Source of the DNA: Gelidibacter algens
Lineage (GTDB): Bacteria > Bacteroidota > Bacteroidia > Flavobacteriales > Flavobacteriaceae
Length of the DNA stretch: 44,170 nucleotides
Assembly: GCF_001678675.1 (NCBI RefSeq)
Contig: NZ_LZRN01000036.1
Span: 1-44,170 of the forward strand
Direction of reading: 5' to 3'
Made by a program: the position numbers and the translations under genes. Positions 16,835 to 44,170 of the stretch are shown here, in pieces. The notes beneath the pieces are model-generated. The model did not search any database, was not told the origin of the DNA, and worked only from the letters and a program-made list of their open reading frames with translations. The number at the start of each line of letters is the position of its first letter. Position 1 is the first letter of the stretch.

Positions 16835-16867
16835 AGACATTTTTATCAGGTATAGAAAGATTTATTT

Positions 16868-16875
16868 TAAATTTG
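16868..16875 (+). promoter_or_regulatory. Candidate -7 box before the CheB remnant and CHASE3 kinase
   Basis: TAAATTTG matches TAnnTTTG, 25 bp before the ATG of the short remnant at 16901. I see no matching -33 box. Confidence 0.4.
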
Positions 16876-16900
16876 CGAGTATTAAAGTAAAATATAGATA

Positions 16901-17020
16901 ATGGCAAAAGAAAGTGGACAACAAGGTAATAAAGCCAAGCTAACCGCAAGCGCACATTATTTCCACATTGTATTAATAGGAGCCTCTGCAGGAGAATATA
17001 TCAATGGAGGATCAGTGTAA
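16901..17020 (+). pseudogene. Remnant of a CheB-CheR start
   Basis: A 39-codon frame beginning MAKESGQQGNKAK and reaching HIVLIGASAGEYINGGSV, then a stop. It matches the start of the neighbouring CheB-CheR fusion (MAKEKKNKTQ...FPIVGIGASAGGLDAF), including the nucleophile loop GASAG. The rest of CheB and all of CheR are missing, and the CHASE3 kinase begins 37 bp downstream. I infer that a second CheB-CheR-PAS kinase was cut and rejoined to a CHASE3 sensor. It is too short to be catalytic. Confidence 0.75.
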
Positions 17021-17057
17021 CCATTAACTTTTATATGTTACAAGTCAGCCCTCACAA

Positions 17058-20000: not shown

Positions 20001-21236
20001 AGTGACCAGCTGGTTAAAGTGCTTTCCACTTCTACAGATATTACCCTGCAAAAAGTAGCGGCAGAAGCAATAAAAGAAAGTGAAGTAAAATTTAGGGTGT
20101 TGTCAGAAAACGTTCCTCATATGATTTGGACAGCCACGGCTGATGGAAAAAGAAATTTTTTCAATAAACACACGCTTGATTATACCGGCCTAACCCACGC
20201 AGAGTTAGAAGACGATGGGTGGCAGCAACCTATTTTTCATGAAGATATAGAAAATGACGTCAGTAAATGGCATCATGCCGTTGCAACCGGAGAAGACTTA
20301 AGAGCTGAAAAACGCCTTAGGCGCCACGATGGATCTTTCCGCTGGCATTTGTGCCATAGCATAGCACAAAAAGGCAGCAATGGTAGTATAAAAGGATGGA
20401 TAGGAACGTGTACTGATATTACAGAGCATAAAGCTTTTACAGAAGAATTGGAAATAAAGGTCAACCAGCGCACCACTGAACTCAAAAAAACAAATGAAGA
20501 ACTGAAGCATACCAACACACAGCTAGGCCAGTTTGCACATATAACAAGCCACGATCTGCAAGAGCCATTGCGGAAAATTATAACCTTTTCCAAACGGTTA
20601 CAGGACGAATATCAAGAGGAGTTGACCACAGGCGCAAAAACCTATCTCGATAAAATTGAAGCTGCATCTGACCGCATGAGAAACCTGATTCAAGACCTGC
20701 TCAATTATTCACGCCTGCTGGAGCACGAAAAATCAGTTGAGAACACCAATTTAAATGAGACCCTAAAAAATATATTAACTGATTTTGAACTACTGGTTGA
20801 TGAAAAGAAAGCCGAAATAAAAAGCGATGCACTCCCTACCATTGAGGCCATCCCTTTGCAAATGAACCAGCTTTTTTACAACCTCATCGGCAACGCCCTT
20901 AAATTTTCGAGGGAAGAGGTGCCACCAGTGATTACCATCACATCACGCACACTTTCAGAAAAAGACGTTAAAAAATATCCCACTTTAAATCCGTCAAGTT
21001 CATATGTTGAAATTATTTTCAAAGACAACGGCATCGGTTTTGAGCAACAATATTCTGAAAAAATATTTACCATCTTTCAGCGTCTGCACAACAGAGATAC
21101 GTTTGTTGGCACAGGCATTGGCTTAGCACTCACAAAAAAAATTACTGAAAACCACAATGGGCTCACGTTTGCAGCTGGACAAGAACATATAGGGGCATCG
21201 TTTCATGTCATACTTCCTTTTACACAACCACAATAA
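17058..21236 (+). CDS. CHASE3-PAS7 membrane histidine kinase
   Basis: This is a 1392-residue kinase. The N-terminal transmembrane helix (about 8-28) is followed by an extracytoplasmic CHASE3 domain (about 38-180, with the typical DAESGQRGFLIT stretch) and a second transmembrane helix (about 183-203). Then come seven PAS domains (about 230-1130), HisKA with His1165 in TSHDLQEP, and HATPase with GTGIGLALTKK. It should sense signals in the periplasm through CHASE3 and in the cytoplasm through PAS. Its last 260 residues are a near copy of those of the CheB-CheR kinase, and a paralogous receiver follows after 18 bp. A short CheB remnant directly upstream suggests it was assembled by replacing the input part of a duplicated CheB-CheR kinase. 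Confidence 0.94.
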   Translation: MKELSKNTSTLLFILLTGVLVVIAFTSYNKIRQFNKSVDLVMDTQIVKANIIELRSIVTDAESGQRGFLITNDSVFLQSVVGAEQRSNLVFSKLESLISDNVGQKENLKKLKTLLAERYLLLNKTLESFKNSPSANLPTDSLLLESKNKMDEVSNKIALMLQTEDVLLEQRIQVKDRKATLTPIFLLLLSLFSIVALTLFFFRLRKETNSRVSATKLVEVEAEARKQIEASELFNRTVLESSPDCLKVLDNEGRIQYMNFNGLCQMEIDDFSTFKNKNWWTIWGSENEALVKASLDKAITGKIAQFIAYCPTAKGTPKWWDVLVSPVGKAGEPVQQIISVSRDITEQKKSEEAIEKIAAHLTLATDSANVGTWSFNVQKQELEWSAVHKKMWGYDAHRTDLTYEDWHKLILPEDKEKTFEKIDEAKNIHNSYDVEYCINRANDDAVRCIRSVGKYYYNEKGEAETLTGISVDITQQKESELKLKASEEKYRGIFEAMDQGFSIIEMIFDSDNKPVDCVYIETNPVFEKQTGLKNVTGKTVRELIPNLEEEWFQIYGKVALTGEPNRFIEGSEALGRWFETYAFRLGDQGSKKVAVLFTDITERKQNEETLQYRKALLEAHNEANRDGLLLVDAKGKIISYNQSFIDVWRMPKEIVDAKDDELALAFAMAQLVNPQQFIDKVKWLYEHPSETSIDELEYLDGRIIERHGYSVVGEDGTYYAWSWTFRDITEQKAAAEAIKESETRFRTMAEATEVLIGVADEASNVTYFNKAWVDLTGRPMEDLLKLGWADLLHPEDKDRVVDTYLSAFANQEGYELEFRILNKNGEYSWLLAKIPARFHPDGTFAGYISASIDITDRKEAEEKIKDARELLETTFQNVPSAIYNFDKTGKILYLNEIGANQIGYATTEEVLAEKDALQLRKRAYETFTVLNEQGQPMPVDQHSTALTFKTGKSSEVVSQLINKKTGASLWLLSRASPIYDASDQLVKVLSTSTDITLQKVAAEAIKESEVKFRVLSENVPHMIWTATADGKRNFFNKHTLDYTGLTHAELEDDGWQQPIFHEDIENDVSKWHHAVATGEDLRAEKRLRRHDGSFRWHLCHSIAQKGSNGSIKGWIGTCTDITEHKAFTEELEIKVNQRTTELKKTNEELKHTNTQLGQFAHITSHDLQEPLRKIITFSKRLQDEYQEELTTGAKTYLDKIEAASDRMRNLIQDLLNYSRLLEHEKSVENTNLNETLKNILTDFELLVDEKKAEIKSDALPTIEAIPLQMNQLFYNLIGNALKFSREEVPPVITITSRTLSEKDVKKYPTLNPSSSYVEIIFKDNGIGFEQQYSEKIFTIFQRLHNRDTFVGTGIGLALTKKITENHNGLTFAAGQEHIGASFHVILPFTQPQ

Positions 21237-21641
21237 CGGACCCAACCACAGACTATGGAGACAACAAATTTTATGATCATAGACGATGATGCAGATGATA
21301 GATTCTTCTTCAAAGCTGCAGTAAGAAAAATTCACAGTTCCGTTAAATTTATGGAGGCAAATGGCTGTGAAGCGGCCATTGCGCTATTGAGAACGGCAGA
21401 AGACTTACCACATTTTATTTTTCTTGACATCAACATGCCCCGCTTGGATGGGCGCGATTGTTTAAAGCAATTAAAAGCAGATGCGAAACTCCAACATATT
21501 CCTGTCATCATGTATTCCACTTCTTTTTCCGAAGAAAGTATCAATGAGTTTCACACACTCGGCGCTTCAACGTATCTCAATAAGCCAACCGATTTAAATG
21601 CACTACCTGAGCAAATTCTTGAAGCAATAAAAGACCTATAA
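20440..21641 (+). repeat. Segmental duplication, copy 2 (kinase C-terminus plus receiver)
   Basis: Matches 15640-16834 over the kinase core, the 18-bp joint and the receiver gene. It is the second half of a duplicated kinase-receiver module. Confidence 0.8.
21255..21641 (+). CDS. Single-domain response regulator, paralog
   Basis: This 128-residue receiver is nearly identical to the one at 16448: the same acidic pocket IIDDDADD, acceptor Asp58 in FLDINMPRLDG, MYSTSF, and Lys in YLNKPT. It has no output domain. It is encoded 18 bp behind the CHASE3 kinase and is probably its acceptor. Differences from the paralog cluster after residue 38 (for instance CEAAIALL versus CEEAIILL), where specificity-determining contacts could lie. 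Cross-talk between the two kinase-receiver pairs is likely given the near-identical kinase cores. Confidence 0.93.
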   Translation: METTNFMIIDDDADDRFFFKAAVRKIHSSVKFMEANGCEAAIALLRTAEDLPHFIFLDINMPRLDGRDCLKQLKADAKLQHIPVIMYSTSFSEESINEFHTLGASTYLNKPTDLNALPEQILEAIKDL

Positions 21642-21960
21642 ACATTTTCAAAGATTTTATTGCTAAGTCTAACACGTTGTAAGCCAATTGTATAAAGCTT
21701 TTAAGCTCAGGCCGAATTGGTGTGTTTTGTTTTTCCGTACCGCATTCATTTATAAACTTAAATGTTTAATTACAATAACGACTGTAAATTATAATAACTA
21801 TCTTACCGCGCAACATAATAAAATACTCAAGGATAATTTAAAGGATAATTTAAAAAACTTCATTAAATAAGTCGCACAGTTTCACAACGTAATTTAACAT
21901 CATTAATCCATTGGAGACCCTGTCCAATTCTTAATCAAAAAGAATTAATCAACAAACAAA
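21642..21960 (+). other. AT-rich spacer before the repeat-scaffold kinase
   Basis: About 320 bp, with a short direct repeat AAGGATAATTTAA near 21830-21855. The 60-codon frame at 21688-21870 has no recognisable domain and I do not call it. No clear promoter or terminator was found. Confidence 0.45.
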
Positions 21961-23031
21961 ATGGATAACAAAGAAAAAACAATAGAACTCATCATTGCCA
22001 ACAAAAAACTCGCTTTTCAAAACCAAGAAAAAGAGAAACGAGCACATGAACTCGTCAGTGCCAATAAAGAACTCGCATTTCAAAAGAAGGAAAAAGATAA
22101 ACGCGCAGCTGAACTTCTCTTGGCCAACAAAGAACTTGCATATCAAAACGAACAAAAAGATAAACGCGCAGCTGAACTCGTTTTAGCCAACGAAGAACTC
22201 GCTTATCAAAACGAACAAAAAGATAAGCGCGCGGCAGAACTCATTCTAGCAAACGAAGAACTCGCTTATCAAAAAGAGCTAAAGAAAAAAAGAGCTTCTG
22301 AATTAAGCAATTCTAACAAAGAAGTTGACGATTTGGAAAAGCGGGTGAAAGAGCGCACCGAAGATTTAGAATCCTTTTCATATTCCGTATCACACGATTT
22401 GCGCACCCCGCTTCGTGCCATAAACGGATATGCAAAAATGCTGGAAGAAGATTATGGCACTGTGCTTGATGCGGAAGGTTTAAGATTTTTGGGTGAAGTG
22501 AGAAGCAACGCCAATAAAATGGGTGTGCTAATAGACGACCTTCTTACCTTTTCTAGATTGGGGAGAAAAGGCATTACAAAGTCAACTGTAGATATGAACA
22601 TGTTACTTGAAACTGTTCTTTCAGCACTCAATCAAAGTATGACACATAATGCTGAAATAAAATTTAGTAATCTACTTCTTGCAGTTGCAGATTATAATTT
22701 ATTGCAGCACGTTTTGACTAATCTTCTGTTAAATGCCATTAAATATTCTTCTAAAAAAGAAAAGCCGATGATAGAAATAAAGTCGGAACAAAAAAACGGG
22801 GAAATTATATATTCTATTAGCGACAATGGCGTAGGCTTTGATATGCAATATGGCAATAAATTATTTGGCGTGTTTCAACGGCTTCATGACGATGAAGAAT
22901 TTTCGGGTAATGGTGTAGGGCTTGCGATTGTGAAGCGCATTATTGATAAGCACGACGGGAACGTATGGGCAGTAGGTAAAGAGGGACAAGGAGCAACCTT
23001 CTATTTTAGCTTACCTGATAATGATAAATAG
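21961..23031 (+). CDS. Histidine kinase with 21-residue coiled-coil repeats and no sensor domain
   Basis: This is a 356-residue protein. Residues 9-113 are five 21-residue repeats (core ANKELAYQNEQKDKRAAEL), exactly three heptads each, predicting a long continuous coiled coil. HisKA follows with His145 in VSHDLRTP, then HATPase with N-box NLLLNAIKYS, G1 DNGVGFD and G2 GNGVGLAIVKR. The kinase core resembles that of bacteriophytochrome kinases, but no PAS, GAF, PHY or membrane segment is present, so the coil is either the input or a docking rod. An Rcp1-like receiver follows after 31 bp, as is typical for phytochrome-type kinases. The DNA repeats could change copy number by recombination. Confidence 0.92.
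   Translation: MDNKEKTIELIIANKKLAFQNQEKEKRAHELVSANKELAFQKKEKDKRAAELLLANKELAYQNEQKDKRAAELVLANEELAYQNEQKDKRAAELILANEELAYQKELKKKRASELSNSNKEVDDLEKRVKERTEDLESFSYSVSHDLRTPLRAINGYAKMLEEDYGTVLDAEGLRFLGEVRSNANKMGVLIDDLLTFSRLGRKGITKSTVDMNMLLETVLSALNQSMTHNAEIKFSNLLLAVADYNLLQHVLTNLLLNAIKYSSKKEKPMIEIKSEQKNGEIIYSISDNGVGFDMQYGNKLFGVFQRLHDDEEFSGNGVGLAIVKRIIDKHDGNVWAVGKEGQGATFYFSLPDNDK
21985..22299 (+). repeat. Five 63-bp in-frame tandem repeats
   Basis: Unit starts at 21985, 22048, 22111, 22174 and 22237 (each beginning GAACTC or GAACTT), with a partial sixth beginning GAATTA at 22300. The middle units are almost identical. They encode the coiled coil of the kinase. Confidence 0.85.
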
Positions 23032-23062
23032 TAGAAAACGAATAGTTTAAAGCAACTAAATT

Positions 23063-23503
23063 ATGGAAAATAACAACGTCGAAATCCTGCTCATAGAAGA
23101 TAATAAGAACGATGCAGAACTGGCCATTCGCGCATTTCGAAAAGCCAATCTCAACAACCATCTCATCCATCTTAAAAACGGGGTTGAAGCCCTTGAGTTT
23201 CTTTTTGGAACAGGGAAGTTTGACGTTAGGGATATTAGCAAAAAGCCAAAAGTAATTCTGCTCGATTTAAAAATGCCAAAGTTGAACGGGCTTGAAGTAT
23301 TGGCGCAAATAAAGGCCAACGAACAGACAAAAGCAATCCCTGTGGTGGTACTTACATCTTCTAAAGAGCATCCGGATATTAAACGCGCCTACGCACTAGG
23401 TGCCAACAGCTACATTGTAAAGCCAGTTGAGTTTGATGACTTTTCGAAAGTAGTAACAGATCTTGGGTTTTATTGGCTGCTCAAAAATCAACCTCACGTT
23501 TAA
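23063..23503 (+). CDS. Rcp1-like single-domain response regulator
   Basis: This 146-residue receiver is of the Rcp1 type that partners phytochrome-like kinases: [12 protein letters not shown] (acidic pocket Glu12/Asp13), the characteristic insertion [16 protein letters not shown], acceptor Asp68 in [11 protein letters not shown], Thr in VVLTSS, Lys in YIVKPVEF, and C-terminal FYWLLKNQ. There is no output domain. It lies 31 bp after the repeat-scaffold kinase and 20 bp before the giant kinase, so one operon is likely. It may be acceptor for the former kinase, donor to others, or both. Confidence 0.94.
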
Positions 23504-23523
23504 TCACATAAAAATTTCCCAGA

Positions 23524-26500
23524 TTGAAAACAAAATTAAAAATACTCCACCTCGAAGACACGCCTACTGATGCTGAATTGGTAGAAAGAGAATTGAAAAA
23601 AGGAAACATTCAATTTGAGACCTTTGTAGTTGCCAATAAAACAGCTTTTGAAAAGGCACTCAAAGCATTTGCTCCTGACATCATCATTTCCGACCACACG
23701 CTGCCTTCCTTTGATTCATTAGAAGCCATAAAAATGATCAAACGTCAAGGATTGAAGATTCCTATCATACTGGTTACAGCTACTGTTTCTGATGAACATG
23801 CTGTAGAAATAATGAAGGCCGGCGCTGATGATTATATCCTGAAAGATCGCTTGCATCGCTTACCGCAAGCAGTACTGAATGCGATGGAGAAATTTAGCCT
23901 GGAACAAGAGCGTGAGCGCATCATTTATGACCATGCACATCTTGCTGCTATTGTAAATGCTTCTAATGATGGCATCATAAGCAAAACATTGGATGGCACA
24001 ATTACCAGTTGGAATACTGGCGCTGAAGAGCTTTTGGGGTATTCAGCGGCAGAAACCATTGGCAAAAACATTGCTATAATTATTCCGCCGGACTGTTTGC
24101 AGGAAGAATTGGGATTTATGGAAAGCCTAAAAAGAGGAGAATCTGTACAGCATTTTGAAACCGTAAGGCTTACAAAAAATGGAAAAAGAGTGGACGTTTC
24201 GCTTACAATCTCTCCGATTAAAGACAGCAACGGAGAAGTAATTGGAGCAGCCAAGATAATCTATGATATAACCGATAGAAAAAAGGCAGAACAAAACTTA
24301 CACGACAGCGAGGAGAAATACCATTCACTTTTTGAGAACAGTTTGGATGCCATACTTCTTACCGTAACTGATGGAAAAATACTCGCGGCAAATCCTGCTG
24401 CCTGTACTATGTTTGGCATGAGTGAGAAAGAAATTTGCGAAGCAGGTAGATTTGGTTTAGTGGATACCAAAGACCCTAGGTTGGCTGCCGCTCTTGAAGA
24501 ACGCCAGCGTACAGGTAAGGTGAAAGCTGAGGTTACAACAATTCGTAAAAATGGGGAGACATTTCCAGGGGAGTTTACTTCTGTAGTTTATAAAAATGCT
24601 AATGGCGAAGAAAGGACTTCAATGATTGTTCGTGATTTAAGTGAAAGAAAACATGCAGAACACCTTATAAAAGAAAGTGAACAATTTAATAGAGGAATCC
24701 TTGCATCTCTCCAATCGCATATTGCGGTTATAGATCATACGGGAACTATTATAACAGTTAATAGGGCATGGGACGATTTTGCCAAAACCAACGGTGTTGA
24801 CCCATTGAAAGGAGTTTCTACCGGAAGCAACTATATTGAAGTTTGCCAAAAATCAATGGCTGCGGGAGATAGTATCGCAGGGCAAACATTAAAGGGCATT
24901 CAATCGGTATTCAATAAGGAAGTAAAAACCTTTGAACTCGAATACCCATGCCATTCTGCAACTGAGCAACGATGGTTTAATCTCTCCATCATGAACTTTG
25001 GTGAAGATGATTCTAAAGTAGTGATCTCACACCAAAATATTACCAAAAGAAAGATTGCTGAAAACAACCTGAGTGATACTTCGGTCGAGTTGCAAAAAAC
25101 ACTTTCAGAACTTCATAAAATACTCGATTCTTCCTTAGATGTTATATGTACCATAAATGCTGATGGGGAGTTTGTAAATGTCAGCGCTGCATCACAACAC
25201 GTTTGGGGTTATTCACCTGAAGCGCTTATTGGCAGTAAATTTATGAATCTTGTGTATGAAGAAGATGTTGATAGGACTTCCAAGGCCGCTGAAAAAATGT
25301 ATAATGGTATCAAGGTTCCCTTATTTGAAAACAGGTACGTGCATAAAAGCGGAAGGGTTGTTCCATTATTATGGTCGGTTAATTGGGATGAAAAGCTCCA
25401 GTTAGTGTTTTGCATCGCCAAAGATGTCACCGAGAAAAAAATACTGGAAAAAGCAGTGGAAACTGAAAGAGATCAGTTTTTTGAAATGTTCTTAAAAGCA
25501 CCATCGGCTATTGGGATGTTGAAAGGCCCCAATCATGTTTTTGAGATGGCCAATCCCCTCTATTTGCAATCGATAGGTAAAAAAGATATTGTCGGAAAAA
25601 CCGTGGCAGAAGTGCTCCCGGAAGTTATTGAACAAGGGTTCGTAGGCATGTTAGATCATGTGTACCAGACCGGCGAATCGTATACTGGCAATGAGATGTT
25701 GGTCAAGGTTGATACAGAAGGAAACGGTGTAATGACAGATTTCTATATCGACTTCGTCTACCAGGCCTATAAAAATGGCAAGGGAGACATAGAAGGCGTT
25801 TTCTTTTTTATCAATGACATCACTGAACAAATACTATCCCGTAAAGAAATAGAAAAAAGCGAGAAACAATACCGGCAGATTGTTGAAACCGCACAGGAAG
25901 GCATTTGGCTGATTGATGAACACAGCAGGACAACGTTTGTGAATAAAAAGATGTGCGAGATCCTTGAATACACTGAGGAGGAATTGATAGGCAAAGAGCA
26001 TTCCTTTTATATGGATGCCGATGGAAAGGACAAAGCGGTGGTTGCTTTGGAGCGAAGAAAAAGGGGAATATCAGAAAATCTAGAATTCAACTTTATTTCT
26101 AAACATGGCAAACACGTGCTCACAAAGGTATCAGCCAATCCTATTTTTGATGATCTGGGGAATTTTAAAGGGTCATTGGGAATGGTTTCAGATATTACCG
26201 AGAAGAAACATTTAGAAGACCTTTTAGAAAAATCGAATAGGCTTGCGGCAGTTGGCAGCTGGGAAATTGATGTTGTAACGGAAACTGTTTATTGGTCAGA
26301 CATTACTAAGGAAATACGTGAAGTAGATAAAGATTATGTGCCGCTCTTAGGTGAGGGCATCAGTTATTTTAAGGAAGGTATTCATAGAGCTACCATTGAG
26401 CAAAAAGTAAAGGACTGTATAAAACATGGCACGCCATGGGATGAAGAGTTACAGATCATTACTTTTAAAGGAAACGAGAAATGGGTACGTACAATTGGCC

Positions 26501-28467
26501 ATGGAGATTTTTTAGATGGGAAATGCATTAAGATACATGGTAGTTTTCAGGACATTACGGAACGTAAAAATGCCGGGTTAAAAGTTAGAGAAAGCGAGTT
26601 CAGGTACCGTCAGATTGTAGAAACCGCGCAGGAGGGCATATGGATGTTAGATGAACACAGTGAAACCACTTTTGTGAATCAGAAAATGTGTGAGATTATT
26701 GGCTATCCATGTGATGAAATGTTGGGCAAAACAAATTTCTTTTTTAAAGACGAAGCTGATTTACAGACCGCCAACGTTGCTCTTAAAAGAAGAAAACAAG
26801 GCATTAGTGAAACCTATAAAGCATCATTTTTAACAAAAGATGGCAGGCTTATCTGGACCCAAATATCCTCCAATCCTATTTTTGATGATGCCAATATTTA
26901 CAAGGGCTCGTTATGGATGGTCTCAGATATTACAGAGAAACTGATGGCTGATAAGATGCTTATGGAAAGTGAGCAGAAGCACCGTAAACTTGCTTCTGAA
27001 TTAGAGATAGAACGCATACGTCTGGTTACAGCACAGTCAGTAGCTAAAGTAGGTAGTTGGGAAACAAACTTGCAGACCTTTCAAGTAAATTGGTCCAATG
27101 AAACGCATCGGATCTTTGGATCCAATCCTGAAAAGTTTGAAGCGTCCCATTCAGCTTTCCTCAATTTTATTCATCCTGAAGACAGGGAGAAAGTAGATGC
27201 AGCCTTTGCTGATTCACTCCACAAAAGCGGGTCTAGTACAATAGAACATCGGATTATTACCTTGAAAGGCAAAGAAAAATGGGTGGAAGAAATTTGGTCT
27301 GTTTCCAGAGACGAAAAGGGCTCTCCTAAGATTGCAACTGGTACGTGCCAAGATATCACGGCAAGTAAAAAAGCTGCAGATAAAGTCATAAGGAGCGAAG
27401 CGAAATTGAATGTAGCGCAGTATATTGCCCATGTGGGTAGTTATGAAGTAGATATGGTAACCAATGAACAAAGTTGGTCTGATGAATTTTATAGGATTTT
27501 AGGGATAAACTCAGGAGTAATGCCCTCTCGTGAAGCCTTCCTGTCATTTGTCCACCCCGATGACAGGCCCAAGGTTGTTAGCAGTATGGATGAGGCTTAC
27601 TCTTTGTACGAAGATTCATTGATTCAGTTTAGATTTATAAGAAAAAATGGTGCCAAAGGATACGCATCATCCGAATGGAAGTTTGAGTTTGACGATCAGG
27701 GCAATCCGCTTTACTTATACGGTATCTTAAGAGATTTGACGAAAGAAAAGAAAGCAGAGCGCGAACGCGTTAAAATGATTTCTGATATTGTTCAGCGCAA
27801 TAGTGATCTGGAGCAGTTTTCTTATATGGTATCACACAACCTTCGTGCCCCAACGGCCAACATTATAGGTTTCGCAGAAATTTTACAGGATGACATGCTC
27901 ACGCCACAAGAGCAAAAAGAACTTCTCCAAGGACTTTCAGCATCCGTTGCAGGCCTCGATACCATCATTAAGGATATCAATGTCATCTTGCAAATTGAAC
28001 GCGAAGTCCACGAGAAAAAAGAAGTTATCGTCTTTTCAAAACTTGTAAATGATATCATGCTAAGTGTAGGCAATCTCATACACAAACATCGTGTGTTTAT
28101 CAAACGCGACTTTTCAGCAGTGGATGAAATCTATTCACTAAAAGTTTACATCTACAGTATCTTCTATAACCTTATAAGCAATAGTATTAAATACAGCAAA
28201 CCAAACGAGCAACCACGCATAGAAATAAAAAGTAAAAAGGAAAACGGAAAAATAATCCTTATATTTAAAGACAACGGTTTGGGTATTGACATGAAAACCA
28301 AAGGCGATAAAATTTTCGGGTTGTACAATCGCTTCCATTCTCATGTTGAAGGCAAGGGCATGGGACTGTTCATGGTAAAAACGCAAGTAGAATCACTAGG
28401 AGGAAAAATAACTGTTGCCAGCAAACCCAATAAAGGAACAGAATTTACAATTGAGTTCGAAATTTAA
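23524..28467 (+). CDS. Receiver-PAS10 hybrid histidine kinase
   Basis: This is a 1647-residue soluble protein. An N-terminal receiver (1-125; LHLEDTPTDAE, acceptor Asp57 in IISDHTLPSFD, Lys107 in YILKDRL) is followed by about ten PAS/PAC units (135-1410), HisKA with His1438 in VSHNLRAP, and HATPase with G2 GKGMGLFMVKTQ at the end. The start is TTG at 23524: the only in-frame codons between the upstream stop (23509) and this TTG are not starts, and the first in-frame ATG would cut into the receiver. Two PAS units (about 25860-26210 and 26590-26940) are recent internal copies. The kinase core is related to that of the kinase at 33213. Receiver-first order suggests that it takes phosphate from a stand-alone partner and integrates it with many PAS signals. 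Confidence 0.93.
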   Translation: MKTKLKILHLEDTPTDAELVERELKKGNIQFETFVVANKTAFEKALKAFAPDIIISDHTLPSFDSLEAIKMIKRQGLKIPIILVTATVSDEHAVEIMKAGADDYILKDRLHRLPQAVLNAMEKFSLEQERERIIYDHAHLAAIVNASNDGIISKTLDGTITSWNTGAEELLGYSAAETIGKNIAIIIPPDCLQEELGFMESLKRGESVQHFETVRLTKNGKRVDVSLTISPIKDSNGEVIGAAKIIYDITDRKKAEQNLHDSEEKYHSLFENSLDAILLTVTDGKILAANPAACTMFGMSEKEICEAGRFGLVDTKDPRLAAALEERQRTGKVKAEVTTIRKNGETFPGEFTSVVYKNANGEERTSMIVRDLSERKHAEHLIKESEQFNRGILASLQSHIAVIDHTGTIITVNRAWDDFAKTNGVDPLKGVSTGSNYIEVCQKSMAAGDSIAGQTLKGIQSVFNKEVKTFELEYPCHSATEQRWFNLSIMNFGEDDSKVVISHQNITKRKIAENNLSDTSVELQKTLSELHKILDSSLDVICTINADGEFVNVSAASQHVWGYSPEALIGSKFMNLVYEEDVDRTSKAAEKMYNGIKVPLFENRYVHKSGRVVPLLWSVNWDEKLQLVFCIAKDVTEKKILEKAVETERDQFFEMFLKAPSAIGMLKGPNHVFEMANPLYLQSIGKKDIVGKTVAEVLPEVIEQGFVGMLDHVYQTGESYTGNEMLVKVDTEGNGVMTDFYIDFVYQAYKNGKGDIEGVFFFINDITEQILSRKEIEKSEKQYRQIVETAQEGIWLIDEHSRTTFVNKKMCEILEYTEEELIGKEHSFYMDADGKDKAVVALERRKRGISENLEFNFISKHGKHVLTKVSANPIFDDLGNFKGSLGMVSDITEKKHLEDLLEKSNRLAAVGSWEIDVVTETVYWSDITKEIREVDKDYVPLLGEGISYFKEGIHRATIEQKVKDCIKHGTPWDEELQIITFKGNEKWVRTIGHGDFLDGKCIKIHGSFQDITERKNAGLKVRESEFRYRQIVETAQEGIWMLDEHSETTFVNQKMCEIIGYPCDEMLGKTNFFFKDEADLQTANVALKRRKQGISETYKASFLTKDGRLIWTQISSNPIFDDANIYKGSLWMVSDITEKLMADKMLMESEQKHRKLASELEIERIRLVTAQSVAKVGSWETNLQTFQVNWSNETHRIFGSNPEKFEASHSAFLNFIHPEDREKVDAAFADSLHKSGSSTIEHRIITLKGKEKWVEEIWSVSRDEKGSPKIATGTCQDITASKKAADKVIRSEAKLNVAQYIAHVGSYEVDMVTNEQSWSDEFYRILGINSGVMPSREAFLSFVHPDDRPKVVSSMDEAYSLYEDSLIQFRFIRKNGAKGYASSEWKFEFDDQGNPLYLYGILRDLTKEKKAERERVKMISDIVQRNSDLEQFSYMVSHNLRAPTANIIGFAEILQDDMLTPQEQKELLQGLSASVAGLDTIIKDINVILQIEREVHEKKEVIVFSKLVNDIMLSVGNLIHKHRVFIKRDFSAVDEIYSLKVYIYSIFYNLISNSIKYSKPNEQPRIEIKSKKENGKIILIFKDNGLGIDMKTKGDKIFGLYNRFHSHVEGKGMGLFMVKTQVESLGGKITVASKPNKGTEFTIEFEI

Positions 28468-28479
28468 TTCTGAAAAGAA

Positions 28480-28878
28480 ATGACAAAACTAACAAAACGG
28501 TTCCTCCTCATTGACGATGACCCACTAAACAATACGCTTACAAAAATGATTCTGAAAAAATCATTTGAGGTTGTGCACGTTAACGCTTTCACTGTTCCAG
28601 AAGATGGGTTGGAATTTATAAAATCTGAGCCCAACCATAACCCTCCAGATGGGAAAACAACACTTTTTCTTGACATTAACATGCCTACACTATCAGGATG
28701 GGAGTTCCTCGAGGCGTTTGAACTTTTTGATGCCTCAATAAAAGAGCACTACACTATTTATATTCTGTCATCTTCTGTGAATCTCAACGACATCAACCTG
28801 GCAAAGGCAAATCCACTTGTTATTGGGTTTATAGAAAAGCCACTCAACAAAGCCAAGCTTGCTAATATATTTAGTTGA
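28480..28878 (+). CDS. Single-domain response regulator
   Basis: This 132-residue receiver starts 12 bp after the giant kinase. It shows the acidic pocket LLIDDDPLN, acceptor Asp65 in FLDINMPTLSG, the Ser position in YILSSS, and Lys in FIEKPLN. It resembles the receivers that follow HWE-unrelated PAS kinases of this group and carries no output domain. It closes the + strand signalling cluster; no terminator is obvious behind it. It is probably the acceptor of the upstream kinase. Confidence 0.92.
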   Translation: MTKLTKRFLLIDDDPLNNTLTKMILKKSFEVVHVNAFTVPEDGLEFIKSEPNHNPPDGKTTLFLDINMPTLSGWEFLEAFELFDASIKEHYTIYILSSSVNLNDINLAKANPLVIGFIEKPLNKAKLANIFS

Positions 28879-36206: not shown

Positions 36207-36470
36207 ATGTTGGAGATTACTACAATAAAAGATGTGAAAGTCAAGATTGGAGAAGCTTGTAAGGCACTTCGTAAATCAAATGATCTATCTCGAGAAGATT
36301 TAGCAGAGGTGCTAGATGTCTCAAGCACAACCATTCAAAACATAGAGAATGGTAAAAATGCGACACTCGATAATATTTTAAAAGTAGCCAATCATTTTGG
36401 ATTATTACAATCTATAACCAAAGAAATAGATAAAGTTATTATTGATCAAAACGACATTTCACTTTATTAA
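36207..36470 (+). CDS. hipB: HipB-type antitoxin (XRE helix-turn-helix)
   Basis: This is an 87-residue DNA-binding protein. Residues 15-70 form an XRE/HTH_3 domain (ACKALRKSNDLSREDLAEVLDVSSTTIQNIENGKNATLDNILKVANHFGL). It should bind the toxin HipA and repress the operon through the inverted repeat directly upstream. The toxin gene starts 3 bp after its stop, the normal antitoxin-first order. The ATG lies only 10 bp from the operator and has no obvious ribosome site, so a leaderless start, or use of the in-frame GTG at about 36235, are alternatives. The gene name is given by context and family, not by close identity to the E. coli protein. Confidence 0.85.
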   Translation: MLEITTIKDVKVKIGEACKALRKSNDLSREDLAEVLDVSSTTIQNIENGKNATLDNILKVANHFGLLQSITKEIDKVIIDQNDISLY

Positions 36471-36473
36471 TAG

Positions 36474-37736
36474 ATGGCTAGAGATAAAATAATAGATATT
36501 ATTGCTTTTGGCCAGGAGATTGGCAAATTAGGCTATGATATAGATCAAGGCAAATCATTTTTTCAATATAATCCTGAATTCTTAGCGTCGGGCAAATACT
36601 CAAAACTCTTTCCCTTTATTTTTAAACGCACCAAACCAGTGCAGGTATTTACGGAATACCAACAAGATACGTTTCAAGGTTTACCACCAATGATAGCCGA
36701 TTCCTTACCCGATACCTTTGGTAATATCATTTTTCAAGAATGGTTAACGGCAAGAGGCATCCAAAAAGTGACACCATTGGAACAATTGGCTTATGTAGCA
36801 GATCGTGGGATGGGTGCGCTTGAATACAAACCAATTAAAGAGTTACCTAATTCACCAAAAGTCAATATTGATGAAGTCATAAATATCTTAGAAAAGGTGC
36901 TCAAGCTCAAAGATGATACCACAGGTAAAGACCTAAGTGAACTATCACTTTTAAATGTTTTTAAGATAGGGACTTCGGCAGGAGGTGCAAGACCAAAAAT
37001 TCTAATTTCAGAACATAAAGAAACAGGAGAAATCATAGCTGGTGATAGAGAAACAAGTGATGACTACAATCACTATTTAGTTAAACTACACCTTGATGAC
37101 AGTGATGGTTACAATAAAGAAAAAGTAGAGTACGCGTATTACTTATTAGCTCAAGAAGCAAATATAGATATGATGTCTTCTAAGCTGATTGAAAACAAAC
37201 ACTTTGCAACATTACGCTACGACAGACAACACGGAGAAAAGCAACACGTATTAACCGTAACCGGTTTAACTGGTTGGGATTTTAAAAGTCAACCAGAAAA
37301 CTCTACCTATGAGAATGTTTTCAAGGTAGCAATAGGACTAGAAGTACCACATAAAGATTTACAACAACTTTTCAAACGTATGGTGTTCAATCTTGTTTTC
37401 AGAAATGTAGACGACCATTTAAAAAACCATAGTTTTATCTATAACAAAGAAAGTAATAGTTGGAATTTAGGACCTGCATATGATTTAACGTATGCACTTA
37501 ATCCGCTATTTACATTCAAAACAACATCTAGGGCTTTATCCATTAATGGTAAGCGTACTTCATTAACAATTAAAGATGTCCTTACTATTGCTGAAGAATT
37601 TTCTATAAAGAACCCTAAAGGAATTATTGAAGATGTCCAAGCCTTAATTTCTCGATGGTCAGTGCTTGCTACTGAATTAGAAATACCTGAGAATATTATT
37701 AAAGCAATTCAAAAAGAAATAAAGGAAATAGAATAA
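36474..37736 (+). CDS. hipA: HipA-type serine/threonine kinase toxin
   Basis: This is a 420-residue protein of full HipA length. The N-terminal part (about 5-120) is the HipA_N region (FFQYNPEFLASG...LPDTFGNIIFQEWL). The kinase core has the phosphate-binding loop GTSAGGARPK (166-175; Ser168 is in the position of the regulatory autophosphorylation serine), the catalytic NVDDHLKN (Asp313, Asn318), and the Mg-binding GPAYDLTYA (Asp337). All key residues are present, so it should be an active kinase. In E. coli HipA phosphorylates glutamyl-tRNA synthetase and causes dormancy; the target here is unknown. Its stop overlaps the ATG of a third small gene (TAATG), suggesting translational coupling. 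Confidence 0.93.
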   Translation: MARDKIIDIIAFGQEIGKLGYDIDQGKSFFQYNPEFLASGKYSKLFPFIFKRTKPVQVFTEYQQDTFQGLPPMIADSLPDTFGNIIFQEWLTARGIQKVTPLEQLAYVADRGMGALEYKPIKELPNSPKVNIDEVINILEKVLKLKDDTTGKDLSELSLLNVFKIGTSAGGARPKILISEHKETGEIIAGDRETSDDYNHYLVKLHLDDSDGYNKEKVEYAYYLLAQEANIDMMSSKLIENKHFATLRYDRQHGEKQHVLTVTGLTGWDFKSQPENSTYENVFKVAIGLEVPHKDLQQLFKRMVFNLVFRNVDDHLKNHSFIYNKESNSWNLGPAYDLTYALNPLFTFKTTSRALSINGKRTSLTIKDVLTIAEEFSIKNPKGIIEDVQALISRWSVLATELEIPENIIKAIQKEIKEIE

Positions 37737-38008
37737 TGGCAAATAGCACACACGCACATTTGAGATACAATATTCTAGACCACGGCTTCCGCAATAGATC
37801 TTATAGTTTTGAAGAGTTATTAAATGCAGTAAATGAGGGAATTGAGGAGTTATATCCTGGAGAAAAAATTTCAGAAAGAACATTACGGGAAGACATTAAA
37901 GTTTTCAAAGATAAGAAAGGCGGATTTGGCACACCACTAAAAGAAGGAATGAGAACTTATAAGTACTCAGTCAGAATGACAGGGAAATACAAGTCATTCG
38001 GTGCGTAA
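37736..38008 (+). CDS. Truncated WYL-type regulator N-terminus, third gene of the hipBA operon
   Basis: This is a 90-residue protein whose start (ANSTHAHLRYNILDHGFRN and ERTLREDIKVFKDKKG) aligns with the first 85 residues of the WYL regulator at 39813 (ATNKHAQIRYTILDRCFSN and LRQLQYDIDHMKSD). It therefore carries the winged-helix part, but the WYL ligand domain is missing and the last residues (SVRMTGKYKSFGA) diverge. It overlaps the hipA stop, so it is co-translated. It may be a decayed regulator or a small DNA-binding third component acting on the operon. I cannot tell which. Confidence 0.75.
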   Translation: MANSTHAHLRYNILDHGFRNRSYSFEELLNAVNEGIEELYPGEKISERTLREDIKVFKDKKGGFGTPLKEGMRTYKYSVRMTGKYKSFGA

Positions 38009-38470: not shown

Positions 38471-39263
38471 ATGGAAGAAAAGTTCGGAAAATGGGTTGCT
38501 GAAAAAGAAAATAAAGCTGCAGGTACAGTTTATAATTATACAAAAGACTTTAAAAAGAATATCCGATCATTATACGCAGTTTACCGGAGAACGCATCTAC
38601 ATTTTTGATATTGATAATGCGACCGAAATATCTCAGATGATCGACTTATACGATTTCAATGGAAAATACAGTGAATTTGGAAATTATGGAAATAGAACCA
38701 ATATCAATGGACTAAAAACCTATGAGCGTTTTTTATTGGATAAGCCAAAGGTACGTGGCAATTCTTCGTATCAAGATAAACGAAATCCAACTTTACGACC
38801 TGAATCTAGACATACGTTATTAGATTATTTTGATCAAGAGTTAAAGACCGAAGCATATGAAATGCGCAACTGTTATGAGTTGTTTTATTGTTTAGAGCGC
38901 TCAATTAGAGAATTAGTAAAATCAACCATGCGTGATTTTTATGGATCCGACTGGTGGACAAAAGTAGAGTATCGTGTGAAAGAAAATGTCAAAAACAATC
39001 TGGACTATGAATTAGATACCACGCATACCAAAAGATCCGATAACGAAATTGATTATACAACATTTGGGGATTTGCGAAAAATTATTAATTCAAACTGGAC
39101 TATTTTCGAAGAGAAATTTGAAAGGAATTTAAGTTCTGTAAACGAAGTCATGATAGATCTCAACCGAATAAGAGTATCTATAGCACATTGTACACCTTTA
39201 GCTCAGAAAGAAATTAAACGCTTAGAAATCCGTATTGATGATTGGTTTGGATTATTGAAATAA
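38471..39263 (+). pseudogene. HEPN (Swt1-like) protein, frame broken in an A-run
   Basis: The ATG at 38471 opens MEEKFGKWVAEKENKAAGTVYNYTKDF, resembling the N-terminal part of Mrr/McrB-associated proteins. Five A at 38552-38556 break the frame; four would give KDFKRISDHYTQFTGERIYIFDIDN and continue to the end, about 263 residues. The C-terminal half (RNCYELFYCLERSIRELV...LRKIINSNW...VNEVMIDLNRIRVSIAHCTPL) looks like a Swt1-type HEPN domain, with the RNase motif R-x4-H in RVSIAH near the C-terminus. HEPN proteins are common RNA-cleaving effectors of defence and abortive infection. It overlaps the convergent gene at its 3' end. Inactivation or base-calling error is undecided. Confidence 0.75.
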
Positions 39264-39647: not shown

Positions 39648-39812
39648 TATCTAATTAATTTCAGCAAATATTCTGAGTTATTACGCAATACATCTGCATG
39701 TTGACGATTATTATCAAAAAGCTCTTAGAAAAGTCCGTTTAAAATTTTAAAAGTCCTTATTTTTAAACCCCTAACAGTATTGAAAACTTTATTTTTAATT
39801 TGAACCAACTTC

Positions 39813-40814
39813 ATGGCAACCAACAAACATGCCCAAATTCGTTATACCATTTTAGATCGCTGTTTCAGTAATTTTAATCGATTGTACACTTATGACTATC
39901 TATTGGAAGAAGTGAACGACCATTTATACGAACTTGGGACAGAAGGGATAAGATTGCGTCAATTACAGTATGATATCGATCATATGAAATCTGATGCTGG
40001 ATGGGCTATAGAATTGGATGAATCGTTAAAGAAAGAACGTAAAAAGGCATTCCGCTATCAAGACAAGAGTTTTTCAATAGCCAATCATCCTTTAAATGTC
40101 GATGATTTAGAACAATTGGAAACCACCATTACCATTCTATCTCGTTATAAGCATCGTGCGGAATTTTCTTGGTTGGAGGAACTGATTCCACGTATGGAAC
40201 AAGCTTTTAACTTAGTCGCTGATGGCGATAACGGCATTGTTGGCTATCAAGAAAACATCGATCTAAAAGGTCGCCAACATATAACTACCTTATTTAATCT
40301 CATTGTAAAACGGAAACAAATCAAGATTATTTACGAGCCGTACGGGAAACCGCAATTTGATGTAGTTGTTTTTCCGTATCATGTGAAGCAATATAATAAC
40401 CGTTGGTTTTTGTTTTGTTTTAATGCGCAGTATCAATCCATTTCCAATTACCCTTTAGATCGAATAATGTCCATTGAGGAGTTGGCGGAAGGTTTTGAAC
40501 CCAGTGCTATCAATTGGTTGGATTATTTTGACGACATTATCGGTGTTACAAAACCAGAAGACGACAAATTAGAAAAGATTCATTTAAAATTTTCTGAACA
40601 GCGTGTTAATTATGTGTTGACCAAGCCTTTACATGGTTCTCAGAAGTTAGATAAATCGGATGAAGGCGGACAAATGGTAATTATAGAAGTGGTTCCGAAT
40701 AATGAGTTGTATCAATTATTGTTGTCGTTTGGGGCAGATGTGGTGGTGATTTCACCTCCGAAAGTTAGGGATGAAATGGTTGAAAGAATTAAAAACTTGA
40801 CCAATAACTATTAA
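39813..40814 (+). CDS. WYL-domain transcriptional regulator
   Basis: This is a 333-residue regulator. The N-terminal winged helix (about 1-90, RQLQYDIDHMKSDAGW) is followed by a middle region and the WYL domain (about 145-235: LFNLIVKRKQIKIIYEPYGK...VFPYHVKQYNNRWFLFCFN...YPLDRIMSIEE), with a C-terminal extension (about 250-333) typical of WYL regulators. WYL proteins bind nucleic acid or nucleotide ligands and often control phage-defence operons. The methylase-kinase gene starts 61 bp downstream on the same strand, so this is the likely regulator of that system. A truncated paralog ends the hipBA operon. Confidence 0.93.
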   Translation: MATNKHAQIRYTILDRCFSNFNRLYTYDYLLEEVNDHLYELGTEGIRLRQLQYDIDHMKSDAGWAIELDESLKKERKKAFRYQDKSFSIANHPLNVDDLEQLETTITILSRYKHRAEFSWLEELIPRMEQAFNLVADGDNGIVGYQENIDLKGRQHITTLFNLIVKRKQIKIIYEPYGKPQFDVVVFPYHVKQYNNRWFLFCFNAQYQSISNYPLDRIMSIEELAEGFEPSAINWLDYFDDIIGVTKPEDDKLEKIHLKFSEQRVNYVLTKPLHGSQKLDKSDEGGQMVIIEVVPNNELYQLLLSFGADVVVISPPKVRDEMVERIKNLTNNY

Positions 40815-40874
40815 CATGCAGATGCACTGCATAAATCAGTTTTTAATTTGCATCAGAATATTAAATCTTAGTTA

Positions 40875-43425
40875 ATGGATAGTTTTGAGAATAAATTTTG
40901 GAATACTTTAAATAGTATTCGTGGGTATAGAGATATAGGAGACCTTAAAGAGCTTTTTATTTCTTTTAGTTTTTTTAAAGTTTGCTAATGACAAATTTAT
41001 TCAATTTTCGTTTAATCAAATTGAGGTACCTAATAATGCCAAATGGGATTTTCTATATTCCAAATTAAATAATTATGATTTTGTAAAAATGCTTTTGGAT
41101 GCTTTCTATACTTTAGAAAATGAAAATGAAAGGTTGAATAAATCGTTTAGTGCTTTTAAATTTGAATATGATTATAACAAAAAAGAGGATTCTGAATTTA
41201 TTATCCAATTGTTCGGTGCTGTATCTGAATTCAACTTTATTGAAAATGAACCGAAATTTTCAGATGTAATTGAAAATTTAATAACCCACTTCGTTAGATA
41301 TGAAGGTAGAAAAGGTGTGGATACTACAACGCCTCAATCTATATCACAGTTAATGATTGAATTGTTAAACCCTCAAAAAGGTTCTATCTTAGATTCTACT
41401 TGTGGAACTGGAGGTTTTTTCCAACAAATTAGTGTTAATTACCCAAATCGGAATCTTTATTTTTATGGTCAGGAGTATAATGCGTCAACTTTGGCGATTG
41501 CTAAGTTAAGGTTTGCGTTTAATGAAGAGGATTCTATTCAATTTGGTGAAGCGAGCAATACACTGAGAGATGATCAGTTTGGAGATTTAAAAGCCGATTA
41601 TGTTCTAATGCATCCTCCTTTCAACCTGAAATTGTTGAGCAATGATCTCAGGTCATATGATCCACGATTTGAGTTTGGTTTGCCACCAACAAGAAATGCA
41701 AACTTTGCTTGGATTCAACATGCCATATATCATCTCAATAGGACGGGTAAAGCAGTTCTATTGCTAAGTAATAGTTCATTGAGTGCAGGGGGTAGTGAAG
41801 GACAAATAAGAAAGAATATTATTGAGGCTGACTTAGTAGAAGCGATAATAGCACTGCCGTCTCAATTACTGGACAATACGAGTATTCCTGCAAGTATATG
41901 GGTGTTAAATAAAAATAAGCCACAAAAAGAGAAGGTATTATTTATTGACGCTTCAACTTTGGGACATATGGTTAATAAAGTTCAGCGTGCTTTAAGTAAT
42001 GAAAATATTCTTGAAATTGCGTCTAATTTTTGGGCTATTCAACAAATGGATTCTAGTTTTATCCATAAAGTTGGTTTTTCTAAATTAACAAGTATATCTG
42101 AAATTGCTGATAGGGGATTTTTATTAACTCCAGGGAGGTATATTGATGTTGAAGGATTATTAGATATTGATTTAAGTAATACACAAGAGCTAGGGAGTCT
42201 ATTAAAAGATGTAAAACCGTCACGCATTGCTCCGGATAAGGAGTATTTGAAGTTGATGATCAAAGATTTATCATCAAATCCTGATAGCTATCAATTAAAT
42301 ACCGAAAATTTATCTATAGGAGAACTAAACTCGAATTTTAGGGCATTAGAAAATGATGTACTTCTGTTAGCTCGAGCAGGAACTAATCTAAAACCTACAT
42401 TTTACGCTTCCAGTACTAAGGAGATTGCCTACGCTAACATGTATGAGTTCAAGGTAGATCAATCTAAAGTGTCGATAGAGTATTTGGTTGCGGAATTATA
42501 TAAAGATTATATTAAATCTCAGATTGAGAGTTTTAATATGGGGGCTGCTATGCCTAGAATTAGACGTGAAGATTTACTAAAAATACGAATTTTAGTTCCG
42601 TCTACTATAAAGGAGCAAACTGAAATTGCAAATAAAGAACGTGAAATACGGTTTCAATCTCTAGCAAAAGATTTAGGTTTTGAGAAGGAGATTGCTAAGC
42701 TCAAATCGGCTCAAATGAAAGATCTGGGCTCTAAAAAGCATAATATTATGCAACATCTTAATAACGTTAAAGCTTCAGCTGATGTCTTATCAAAAATGAT
42801 GAAACTTAATAATGGTATTTTGAGATCTGATGAGATAATAGATCCGAAAAGAGGCGTTACTGTAGAGAAACGGTTACTTCGTTTACAAGAAAGTTTAGAG
42901 ACAGTAATATATTATGTGCATAATATTACTAATGAACTAAAATATGATGATGCTGAAATATTAAATATTATTACCCTTTTAAAAGAATGTAAAGAGAGAG
43001 GGATTCAAGGGGAACAATTTTCAGTTGAGATAATTGTTGAAAATCAATCATTCCAAGGAAGTGAGCCACTAGTAAATATTTCTAAAAATGATTTTGAAGA
43101 AATTTATATTAACATTTTAGAAAATGCTATTAATCACGGTTTTGTTGATGAAAATAAGTCTTATATTTTTCGTATTTCAATAGCTTTTATTGATGGTTAT
43201 TTAGAAATTAATTTTGAAAATAACGGGAAACCTTTTCCTAAAGGTATTGCTGAAAGATATTATGTAAAAGGTGAAAAAGGAGGTACAACAGCTGGAACAG
43301 GAATTGGGCTATGGAAAGTTTCTGAAATTGCCAATCATTTTGATTGTAAGTTAGAAGTTTTTGATGAACCTACAAGTGAGTTTCCTGTGGGGTTTAAATT
43401 TAAATTTAATCTTAAAGCACGTTAA
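40875..43425 (+). CDS. Type I DNA methylase / specificity-like / histidine kinase fusion
   Basis: One long frame from 41089 encodes 778 residues. The ATG at 40875 opens an N-terminal part that joins it if the seven-T run at 40970-40976 is read as six, giving about 849 residues. Residue numbers are from 41089. A HsdM-like N6-adenine methylase (about 60-350) has SAM motif I STCGTGGF (103-110), but the catalytic NPPF is HPPF (175-178). A type I specificity-like TRD half (about 365-520) contains LLLARAGTNLKP and GAAMPRIRREDLLKIRI. Then come a dimerisation helix with His551 (SKKHNIMQHL), N-box ILENAINHG (677-684), NNGKPFP, and G2 box GTGIGLWKV (737-745) of a HATPase. So DNA recognition is coupled to a kinase. 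A response regulator starts 3 bp after the stop. No HsdR gene is visible. Confidence 0.88.
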
Positions 43426-43428
43426 TTG

Positions 43429-44170
43429 ATGAATAAGTACGAAGTATTATGGATAGATGATGATGCTGAAAAACAAGATGCATTTTTAGAATCCGCATAT
43501 TTAGAAGGGTTAAATATTAATTACTACAAAACTTCTAAACTTGGTATGGAAGAGTTGACTTCTAAAATTGAACATTATGATGCAGTGATTTTGGATGCCA
43601 TGGTATATAATGATTCTGAGGATGAAAAGCCAGGGTTGATGGGTTTGCTAAGATCTATTAAAAAGATTAATAGTTTGGCAGATCGAAAAAGGATCCCCTA
43701 TTTTATTTTTTCTGGTTATATAGATAAAGATGAACATTCAAGTGCAAGAGAAATGCTAGCCGATGAAACTATTTTTATTAAAAGTAAGGATAATCAGGCA
43801 CTCTTTGACGCAATTAAAAAAGCTGCAGATCAACAAGCGGATACACAGATAAGACACAAATACCAAAGAGTTTTTGATGTATGTACAGAAAAGTACATAG
43901 GGGAAAATGCGGGCGAAGATTTGCTTACAATATTGATGAATATAGATAATATATCAGCCGATACTCAATTTAACGTATTGAGAAAAATTGTAGAAGATAT
44001 TTTTATAGCATTTAATAAATTCCAATTATTACCTAAAGATTTTATTACACCATCGGTAGCCCTCAATGAAAGCAGTAAGTTTTTGGCTGGTAAAAATCAT
44101 AAAGGAGAATTGTTTTCAGAGAAGGGATATCAGCATTTAGAAGGAACTCATATTCCATCTCAAATTTCAT
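43429..44170 (+). CDS. Response regulator with C-terminal effector part, cut by the window end
   Basis: 247 codons are visible without a stop. Residues 1-130 are a receiver: acidic pocket WIDDD (10-12), phospho-acceptor Asp56 in VILDAM, Ser95 in FIFSG, and Lys118 in FIKSK. The following at least 115 residues (for example FNVLRKIVEDIFIAFNKFQLLP) are mostly helical, match no DNA-binding domain that I know, and continue beyond the window. They could be an effector of an HEPN-like or other helical type. The gene follows the methylase-kinase fusion by 3 bp, so the two form a two-component pair in one operon, with the WYL regulator in front. Confidence 0.88.
   Translation, partial: MNKYEVLWIDDDAEKQDAFLESAYLEGLNINYYKTSKLGMEELTSKIEHYDAVILDAMVYNDSEDEKPGLMGLLRSIKKINSLADRKRIPYFIFSGYIDKDEHSSAREMLADETIFIKSKDNQALFDAIKKAADQQADTQIRHKYQRVFDVCTEKYIGENAGEDLLTILMNIDNISADTQFNVLRKIVEDIFIAFNKFQLLPKDFITPSVALNESSKFLAGKNHKGELFSEKGYQHLEGTHIPSQIS

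Follow-up and report, generated by a model that had tools for sequence, protein, structure and literature searches.

Restriction systems are often regarded as always on. Two-component logic in defence is known from Detocs, which has a different output and no methylase sensor, and the ATPase/Toprim system PARIS, which contains neither a kinase nor a methylase, is a precedent for sensing the anti-restriction protein Ocr. CapW is a WYL transcription factor located ahead of defence operons. As far as the consulted parts of the respective papers go, two systems are the closest published analogues of the genes described here. HEF_HK/Response_reg_2 pairs (PF19191/PF19192) occur near restriction-modification (R-M) systems, especially type II, and were proposed to signal to them (PMC8011034), and CapK/CapS, a kinase-repressor pair activated by single-stranded DNA, lies upstream of diverse immune operons (PMC13373217). 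In addition, these excerpts describe BrxR-type WYL proteins that adjoin type I and type IV restriction enzymes, among others (PMC9122601), and kinases in other defence contexts (PMC12839542, PMC7641849). Here, we describe a row of three genes at the 3′ end of a 44,170-b stretch of Gelidibacter algens DNA, the entire contig C36 of a draft genome of 4.5 Mb in 140 contigs, which is called “the window” below. The genes, all on the + strand, encode a WYL regulator, a fusion of an HsdM-like methylase, a target recognition domain (TRD) and a histidine kinase, and a cryptic response regulator (RR).

The trio is real and conserved, no prior description of it was found, and it is more specific than a first-pass annotation, made from the sequence letters of the window, had supposed. 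It very likely constitutes a two-component system that senses through a dead methylase, and its job is probably the control of linked restriction genes. The reading that we favour, with reasonable confidence, is a signalling cassette of a pseudo-HsdM/TRD sensor kinase and an RR that controls neighbouring restriction systems, mostly of type I. Sequence comparisons and a structure model show the parts and their arrangement. They also show that methylase motifs have been lost, that the His and the receiver Asp are conserved, that the RR is a constant neighbour, and that restriction modules change behind a trio that stays the same.

Relatives of the trio

Thirty-three distinct fusions and their loci were compared, which were kept if the E value with a TRD-kinase profile was <1e-40 and the open reading frame (ORF) exceeded 600 amino acids (aa). 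The loci carry L-numbers as labels; L027 (same locus as L025) was left out before counting, L083 is a repeat of L019, and the Myroides locus L088 is not among the 33. The number of loci rules out a local fusion or an assembly artefact. Matches to the fusion, own genome included, were found in 10 of 395 genomes of the order (E≤1e-10) and in 11 of 397 genomes of the family and 12 of 395 of the phylum (both E≤1e-20), the three genome draws overlapping. Beyond the Bacteroidota, the coverage consisted of one scan of genome contigs for close relatives, viral contigs, and plasmids. The contig scan yielded eight loci, all from Bacteroidota, and the 238 pattern matches in viral contigs included no relative. 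Among plasmids, the same three Myroides records were the only matches, both for two queries with the TRD-kinase part and for one with the RR.

The RR gene directly follows the fusion in 32 of 32 readable loci (L035 is cut), and an RR query matched 6 of 296 genomes, with all six matches adjoining a fusion. A WYL gene lies at most two ORFs upstream of the fusion in 25 of the 33 loci, on the same strand in 22 and divergently in three. The row of WYL regulator, fusion and RR reported by the first-pass annotation was thus confirmed, and the fusion with its adjacent receiver, for which it had proposed a homolog search, is not unique to the window. Judged from sequence and model, a histidine kinase with an HsdM/TRD-derived sensor end and an RR, usually accompanied by a WYL gene, are kept together across many genera. 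On a mobilizable Myroides odoratimimus plasmid the order is WYL, fusion, RR, HsdM, HsdS, two further genes, and HsdR; in its record, “N-6 DNA methylase” stands for the fusion and “hypothetical protein” for the RR.

Kinase and structure model

The main open frame of the fusion (40939..43425, +) encodes a pseudo-HsdM, a TRD, a long helix, a dimerization and histidine phosphotransfer (DHp) domain and a HATPase, as assigned by Pfam (N6_Mtase, Methylase_S, HATPase_c) and by the model of the L019 homolog. The first ATG of this frame, at 41089, gives a protein of 778 aa. Three-frame translations place the 5′ piece of the gene, i.e. the N-terminal part of HsdM (40875..40988, +), in a different frame from the remainder. 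The interruption sits in a T-rich stretch and may be a sequencing error or a true mutation; the compared homologs are all unbroken.

The predicted phospho-acceptor of the DHp helix, His551 (codon 42739..42741, +), is a His in 33 of 33 fusions, as is typical of two-component systems. The HATPase_c or catalytic (CA) domain (43090..43416, +; residues 668-776, Pfam 5.6e-8), with its N, G1 and G2 boxes, was recognised by Pfam in 26 of 33 fusions (E≤1e-3), and N and G boxes were read by eye in each of the 32 sequences long enough to contain them. Across the 33 aligned fusions, strict invariance is confined to Gln510 and His551 (window numbering); columns past the end of L035 cannot count as invariant, because this sequence stops before the HATPase. 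The HATPase residues N679, N711, G713, G738 and G740 are nearly invariant. The model of the L019 homolog contains HsdM, M.TaqI and DHp-CA folds within a single chain, and a helix (577-643) links the TRD to the DHp. The kinase that the first-pass annotation had read at the C-terminus is supported by domain matches and by the model. No membrane domain is among the matches of the fusion.

The fused methylase

The N6_Mtase domain of the window (41254..42153, +; Pfam, residues 56-355 of the 778-aa frame) carries DSTCGTGGF as motif I, and in the motif columns of the alignment its motif IV reads HPPF in place of NPPF (41611-41622, +). One alignment combined the 33 fusions with 25 ordinary HsdM proteins, of which 23 come from the compared loci and two from elsewhere in the genome of the window; the pieces of the split HsdM in L028 and in L069 (<381 aa) are not among the 25. 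By motif rules set after the sequences had been seen (motif IV, [ND]PP[FYW]; motif I, DPxxG[TSA][GA][GS]), motif IV is present in 8 of the 33 fusions (10 by a laxer rule) versus 25 of 25 HsdM proteins, and motif I in three of the 33 versus 23 of 25. Both motifs are canonical in none of the 33 fusions, compared with 23 of the 25 HsdM proteins. A looser rule for motif I, GxG, is kept in 14 of 33 fusions, with none of the 33 having both GxG and motif IV; this rule was replaced, because it would miss genuine HsdM proteins that have GTAG. The methylase fold has been retained, since all 33 fusions match Pfam N6_Mtase. By its motifs, the fused methylase looks catalytically dead, which speaks against a sensor that still methylates DNA. 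The conservation of the kinase His and of the RR active site (see below), together with the variation of the methylase motifs, suggests that signalling is under selection and methylation is not.

In the methylase tree, the window group joins one HsdM clade (support 98/96), and in the tree of the TRD-kinase part it groups with L025, L026 and L028 (99/98). Several independent captures of an HsdM as a sensor are not claimed, because a single clade is not rejected by an approximately unbiased (AU) test (p 0.263) and some branches are long.

The TRD and the changing restriction partners

The fusion has one type I specificity-like TRD, equivalent to one half of an HsdS (42349..42630, +; Pfam Methylase_S, residues 421-514, E 2.6e-4). 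The HsdS chains 5ybb_D and 3okg_A were matched by the A1 profile at profile positions 546-617 with E values of about 5e-6. The ratio of TRD identity to methylase identity has a median of 0.98 for pairs of fusions (39 pairs, range 0.75-1.19, taken as domain pieces), versus a median HsdS/HsdM ratio of 0.58 for pairs of linked systems (66 pairs, 0.45-0.86, whole proteins). All pairs have a methylase identity of at least 40%, six pairs per side fall where the two ranges overlap, and the pairs share members and are thus not independent, so that no valid p value can be given. The fusion therefore differs from an HsdS in having a single TRD-like part (model, Pfam) and in not diversifying faster than the methylase.

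Separate HsdM and HsdS genes were found among the first nine same-strand downstream ORFs in 23 of 31 loci, and the window brings this to 24 of the 32 testable loci via a second contig of the same genome, C87 (5,260 b). C87 ends with an RR tail that is 65% identical to that of L024, and inward from it lie an HsdM (807 aa), an HsdS (395 aa) and a GmrSD-like ORF. The ends of C36 and C87 have no exact overlap of 6-60 bases, and their adjacency was therefore deduced from homology and gene order. A four-sequence profile detected HsdR in 12 of 23 fetched HsdM/HsdS stretches, several of which end early. These frequencies argue against a defence system of three genes that acts alone, with no restriction partner. 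A linked HsdR and normal HsdS, which the first-pass annotation had taken as the mark of an ordinary type I system, do exist; this system is linked to the trio, but separate from it and not formed by it.

The fusions of the window group (n=7), with kinases that are 67-81% identical, stand before four well-supported HsdM clades, i.e. those of the window (C87), of L020 and L021, of L022, and of L019, L023 and L024. Sequence comparison thus indicates that restriction modules swap behind a constant trio. The eight testable loci that lack HsdM/HsdS downstream have different neighbours or, in L071, L078 and L079, none that was recognised. L033 has an AAA_5 ATPase and an McrBC component; 15.0 kb of its 15.8-kb contig, which begins inside the fusion, were fetched and contain neither HsdM nor HsdS. 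L072 has an AAA_5 ATPase downstream, and its HsdM/HsdS lie upstream instead. L077 has an AAA_15 ATPase and a UvrD helicase (best PADLOC matches NsnB, 2e-35, and RTasHel, 8e-15; GajA and GajB are weaker), L032 a NERD-UvrD neighbour, and L067 a C5 cytosine methylase several genes off. DUF2130 genes occur near several trios at varying positions (L019:6395-7660, L023:11628-12896, L024:5071-6354), assigned by Pfam in L019 and L023 and by BLAST to L023 in L024.

The response regulator and its output

The RR of the window (43426..44170, +; D57 codon 43594-43596) is cut by the end of the contig, which is also the end of the window, and its tail is on C87. The acceptor Asp, the acidic Asp, the Ser/Thr and the Lys of a receiver are present in 32 of 32 RRs, and D12, L56, D57 and K119 are invariant. 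Nineteen of the 32 RRs have 374-403 aa, with an extra C-terminal part after the helical part, and ten have 292-316 aa and end after the helical part. The C-terminal part of the long RRs matches OB_RNB in four of 32 (best 4.3e-5) and S1CSD-TOTE-2 in four of 32, and the RR profile matches CspA and Rho chains with E values of 0.016-0.066.

For the helical output, Pfam found no known nuclease family in the 32 RRs. A relationship to DUF4145 (HEPN) was suspected by eye; in a comparison with the N-termini of 11 HsdR proteins (DUF4145 is present in the L019 and L070 ones at least), hhalign gave a probability of 0.3 percent. A PDB sequence search with the helical part gave a single, meaningless match (E 0.64). 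The fold search barely probed the non-receiver part, because the receiver fills the fold lists of the RR.

The RRs of L033 and L072 carry SLFN_AlbA_2 (6e-15 and 2e-16, respectively). These Schlafen AlbA_2 RRs (L033:2438-3385 and L072:12239-13183) both have an AAA_5 gene downstream, so the output domain and the neighbour may change together; the McrBC component was confirmed in L033 only.

The WYL gene and the upstream region

The first gene of the trio encodes a WYL-domain regulator of 333 aa (39813..40814, +; Pfam WYL 1e-10, WCX 2.7e-14), 80% identical to the L019 copy. The region directly 5′ of its start (39749-39812) is 84% identical between the window and L019 (59 of 70 columns, start codon included). 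The remainder of the upstream 400 bases has short matches only, and the conserved region is a possible promoter or operator. An inverted-repeat search for an operator upstream of 11 WYL genes found no repeat common to them.

Further upstream, a protein with a helix-turn-helix (HTH) domain (HTH_3; weak couple_hipB match) is followed by a HipA-like gene (36207-37736), i.e. a HipBA-type toxin-antitoxin pair. A 90-aa ORF (37736-38008), with 37-39% identity to the N-terminal 73 residues of WYL regulators, has the appearance of a WYL fragment or a stand-alone DNA-binding part. A Swt1-like HEPN protein (38496-39263) matches the PADLOC candidate PDC-M34B (5e-35). The stretch 11816-28878, in which the G+C fraction is raised (0.37-0.44 vs 0.31-0.37 in the surroundings), contains ORFs of 1537, 1392 and 1647 aa, and a small ORF of 128-132 aa comes after each of these three very large ones.

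Discussion

According to the proposed mechanism, the pseudo-HsdM/TRD clamp would bind a ligand independently of whichever HsdS adjoins. The long helix that leaves the TRD, at the place of the HsdS spacer, and enters the DHp bundle would transmit ligand binding to the kinase. His551 is predicted to be phosphorylated and to pass the phosphate to Asp57 of the RR, the output of which (helical, often with a cold-shock/OB-like part, in two loci with Schlafen AlbA_2) would adjust the downstream restriction genes in their expression or activity, by activation or by repression. The WYL protein would be the promoter-level regulator. Candidate ligands are a fixed DNA feature, free restriction subunits, and anti-restriction DNA mimics.

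The alternatives differ mainly in the ligand and in the target of the RR. The first-pass annotation had proposed that the kinase is switched by the methylase/TRD part, which would read either a DNA sequence or the methylation state of that sequence, e.g. to delay restriction until the host genome is methylated. This is unlikely, but survives best among the alternatives. The HsdM/TRD fold including the M.TaqI-like arrangement is kept in the model, HsdM/HsdS adjoin in most loci, and the close group retains much of motif I. On the other hand, catalytic motifs are lost, and the genes downstream of the L033 fusion are McrBC-like. The fused TRD is conserved while the neighbouring HsdS varies, which makes it unlikely that the sensor is tuned to the recognition site of its partner; it may instead read some fixed DNA feature.

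Somewhat more doubtful is the idea that the pseudo-HsdM/TRD is a bait, to which anti-restriction DNA mimics of the Ocr or ArdA type, or attackers of HsdM, bind, so that the kinase reports disarmed restriction. The RR would then boost restriction or a second line of defence, and a bacterial two-component system would sense through an integrated decoy. A ligand of this kind would explain the retained fold, the lost chemistry and the frozen specificity.

Control could also be post-translational, with the RR output binding HsdR or HsdM-HsdS and gating restriction without a change in transcription. The lack of a recognised HTH in the RRs and the close spacing of trio and HsdM on one strand in many loci are in line with this idea, which we nevertheless regard as improbable: closely similar trios serve four HsdM clades, and a related one has McrBC-like neighbours, so that the binding would have to be very promiscuous. 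Still less probable is that the trio itself is an abortive-infection effector, with an RR output that attacks RNA or DNA, and that the restriction genes are mere island neighbours. The outputs are nucleic-acid-like (OB/CSD in a few members, SLFN_AlbA_2 in L033 and L072), but the helical output matches no known nuclease family, CSD-type domains usually bind rather than cut, and most loci have the trio immediately ahead of restriction genes. An ordinary solitary or type IIG-like methylase with a decaying kinase tail, as the record annotation “N-6 DNA methylase” might imply, is ruled out for practical purposes, because the decay runs in the opposite direction: the methylase motifs are lost alongside conserved kinase and RR active-site residues.

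Several observations weigh against the favoured reading, i.e. a pseudo-HsdM/TRD sensor kinase that controls neighbouring restriction systems. The confidence of the fusion model is modest (pTM 0.45). The motif rules were fixed after viewing the sequences, and, as far as can be judged from the residues, binding of S-adenosylmethionine may be possible, given that the close group of the window keeps much of motif I and GxG is kept in 14 of 33 fusions. The AU test leaves one origin of the fused methylase domain unrejected. A nearby WYL gene is absent in eight of 33 loci, including L033, which begins at a contig end. Four fusion genomes from the order-level search are not among the matches of the RR query, for which the genome draws may differ. 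HsdM/HsdS are not downstream in eight of the 32 testable loci, and L071, L078 and L079 have no recognised restriction neighbour. HsdM is split into two ORFs in L069 and in L028, where it lies about 8 kb away past opposite-strand genes. A single operon transcribed from a promoter ahead of the WYL gene fits feedback as well as induction. Pfam recognised no HTH in the 32 RRs; transcription control is therefore a guess, and control at the RNA or protein level is equally compatible.

If the favoured reading is true, restriction is actively sensed and tuned, by a two-component system that uses a retired restriction enzyme as its sensor. A constant module then fronts type I systems that are unrelated to one another, as well as at least one system of the McrBC-like kind. 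Such a module is easily overlooked, as its plasmid annotation (“N-6 DNA methylase” and “hypothetical protein”) illustrates. The named sensor His and partner Asp make the question of the ligand directly testable.

Comparison with known systems

The first-pass annotation knew of no named system with this architecture, and none was found in the Pfam, NCBIfam and PADLOC scans. In PADLOC-DB 2.0.0, the 25 of 54 matching families listed for the window fusion are MTase, Specificity and mad2/mad5 models; the window RR has no match at 0.1, and the L019 RR has none at 1e-3. The fusion partially matches the MAD2 and MAD5 models of MADS (PADLOC, NCBIfam), with scores far under the NCBIfam cut-offs (35.5 of 720 and 18.2 of 400). 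Neither a methylase-sensor kinase nor a methylase-kinase fusion appears in the titles or abstract openings among the literature matches listed, and the former is not described in the excerpts of PMC8011034, PMC13373217, PMC9122601, PMC12839542 and PMC7641849.

As described in the parts of these papers that were consulted, the analogues share individual features with the trio. BrxR resembles the WYL protein of the trio as a WYL transcription factor ahead of defence operons, but a kinase-RR couple is not mentioned in the excerpt (PMC9122601). The HEF_HK/Response_reg_2 pairs likewise consist of a soluble GHKL kinase beside a cryptic response regulator near R-M genes. In contrast to the trio, they accompany mostly type II R-M systems and mostly have an N-terminal HATPase_c_3 rather than a pseudo-HsdM/TRD (PMC8011034, in the excerpted text); PF19191 and PF19192 are absent from the Pfam matches of the 33 fusions (E≤1e-3) and the 32 RRs (E≤0.01). 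CapK, according to the excerpt, phosphorylates a STAS-wHTH repressor on serine (PMC13373217), whereas the trio combines a predicted DHp His and a receiver Asp with a methylase-derived sensor.

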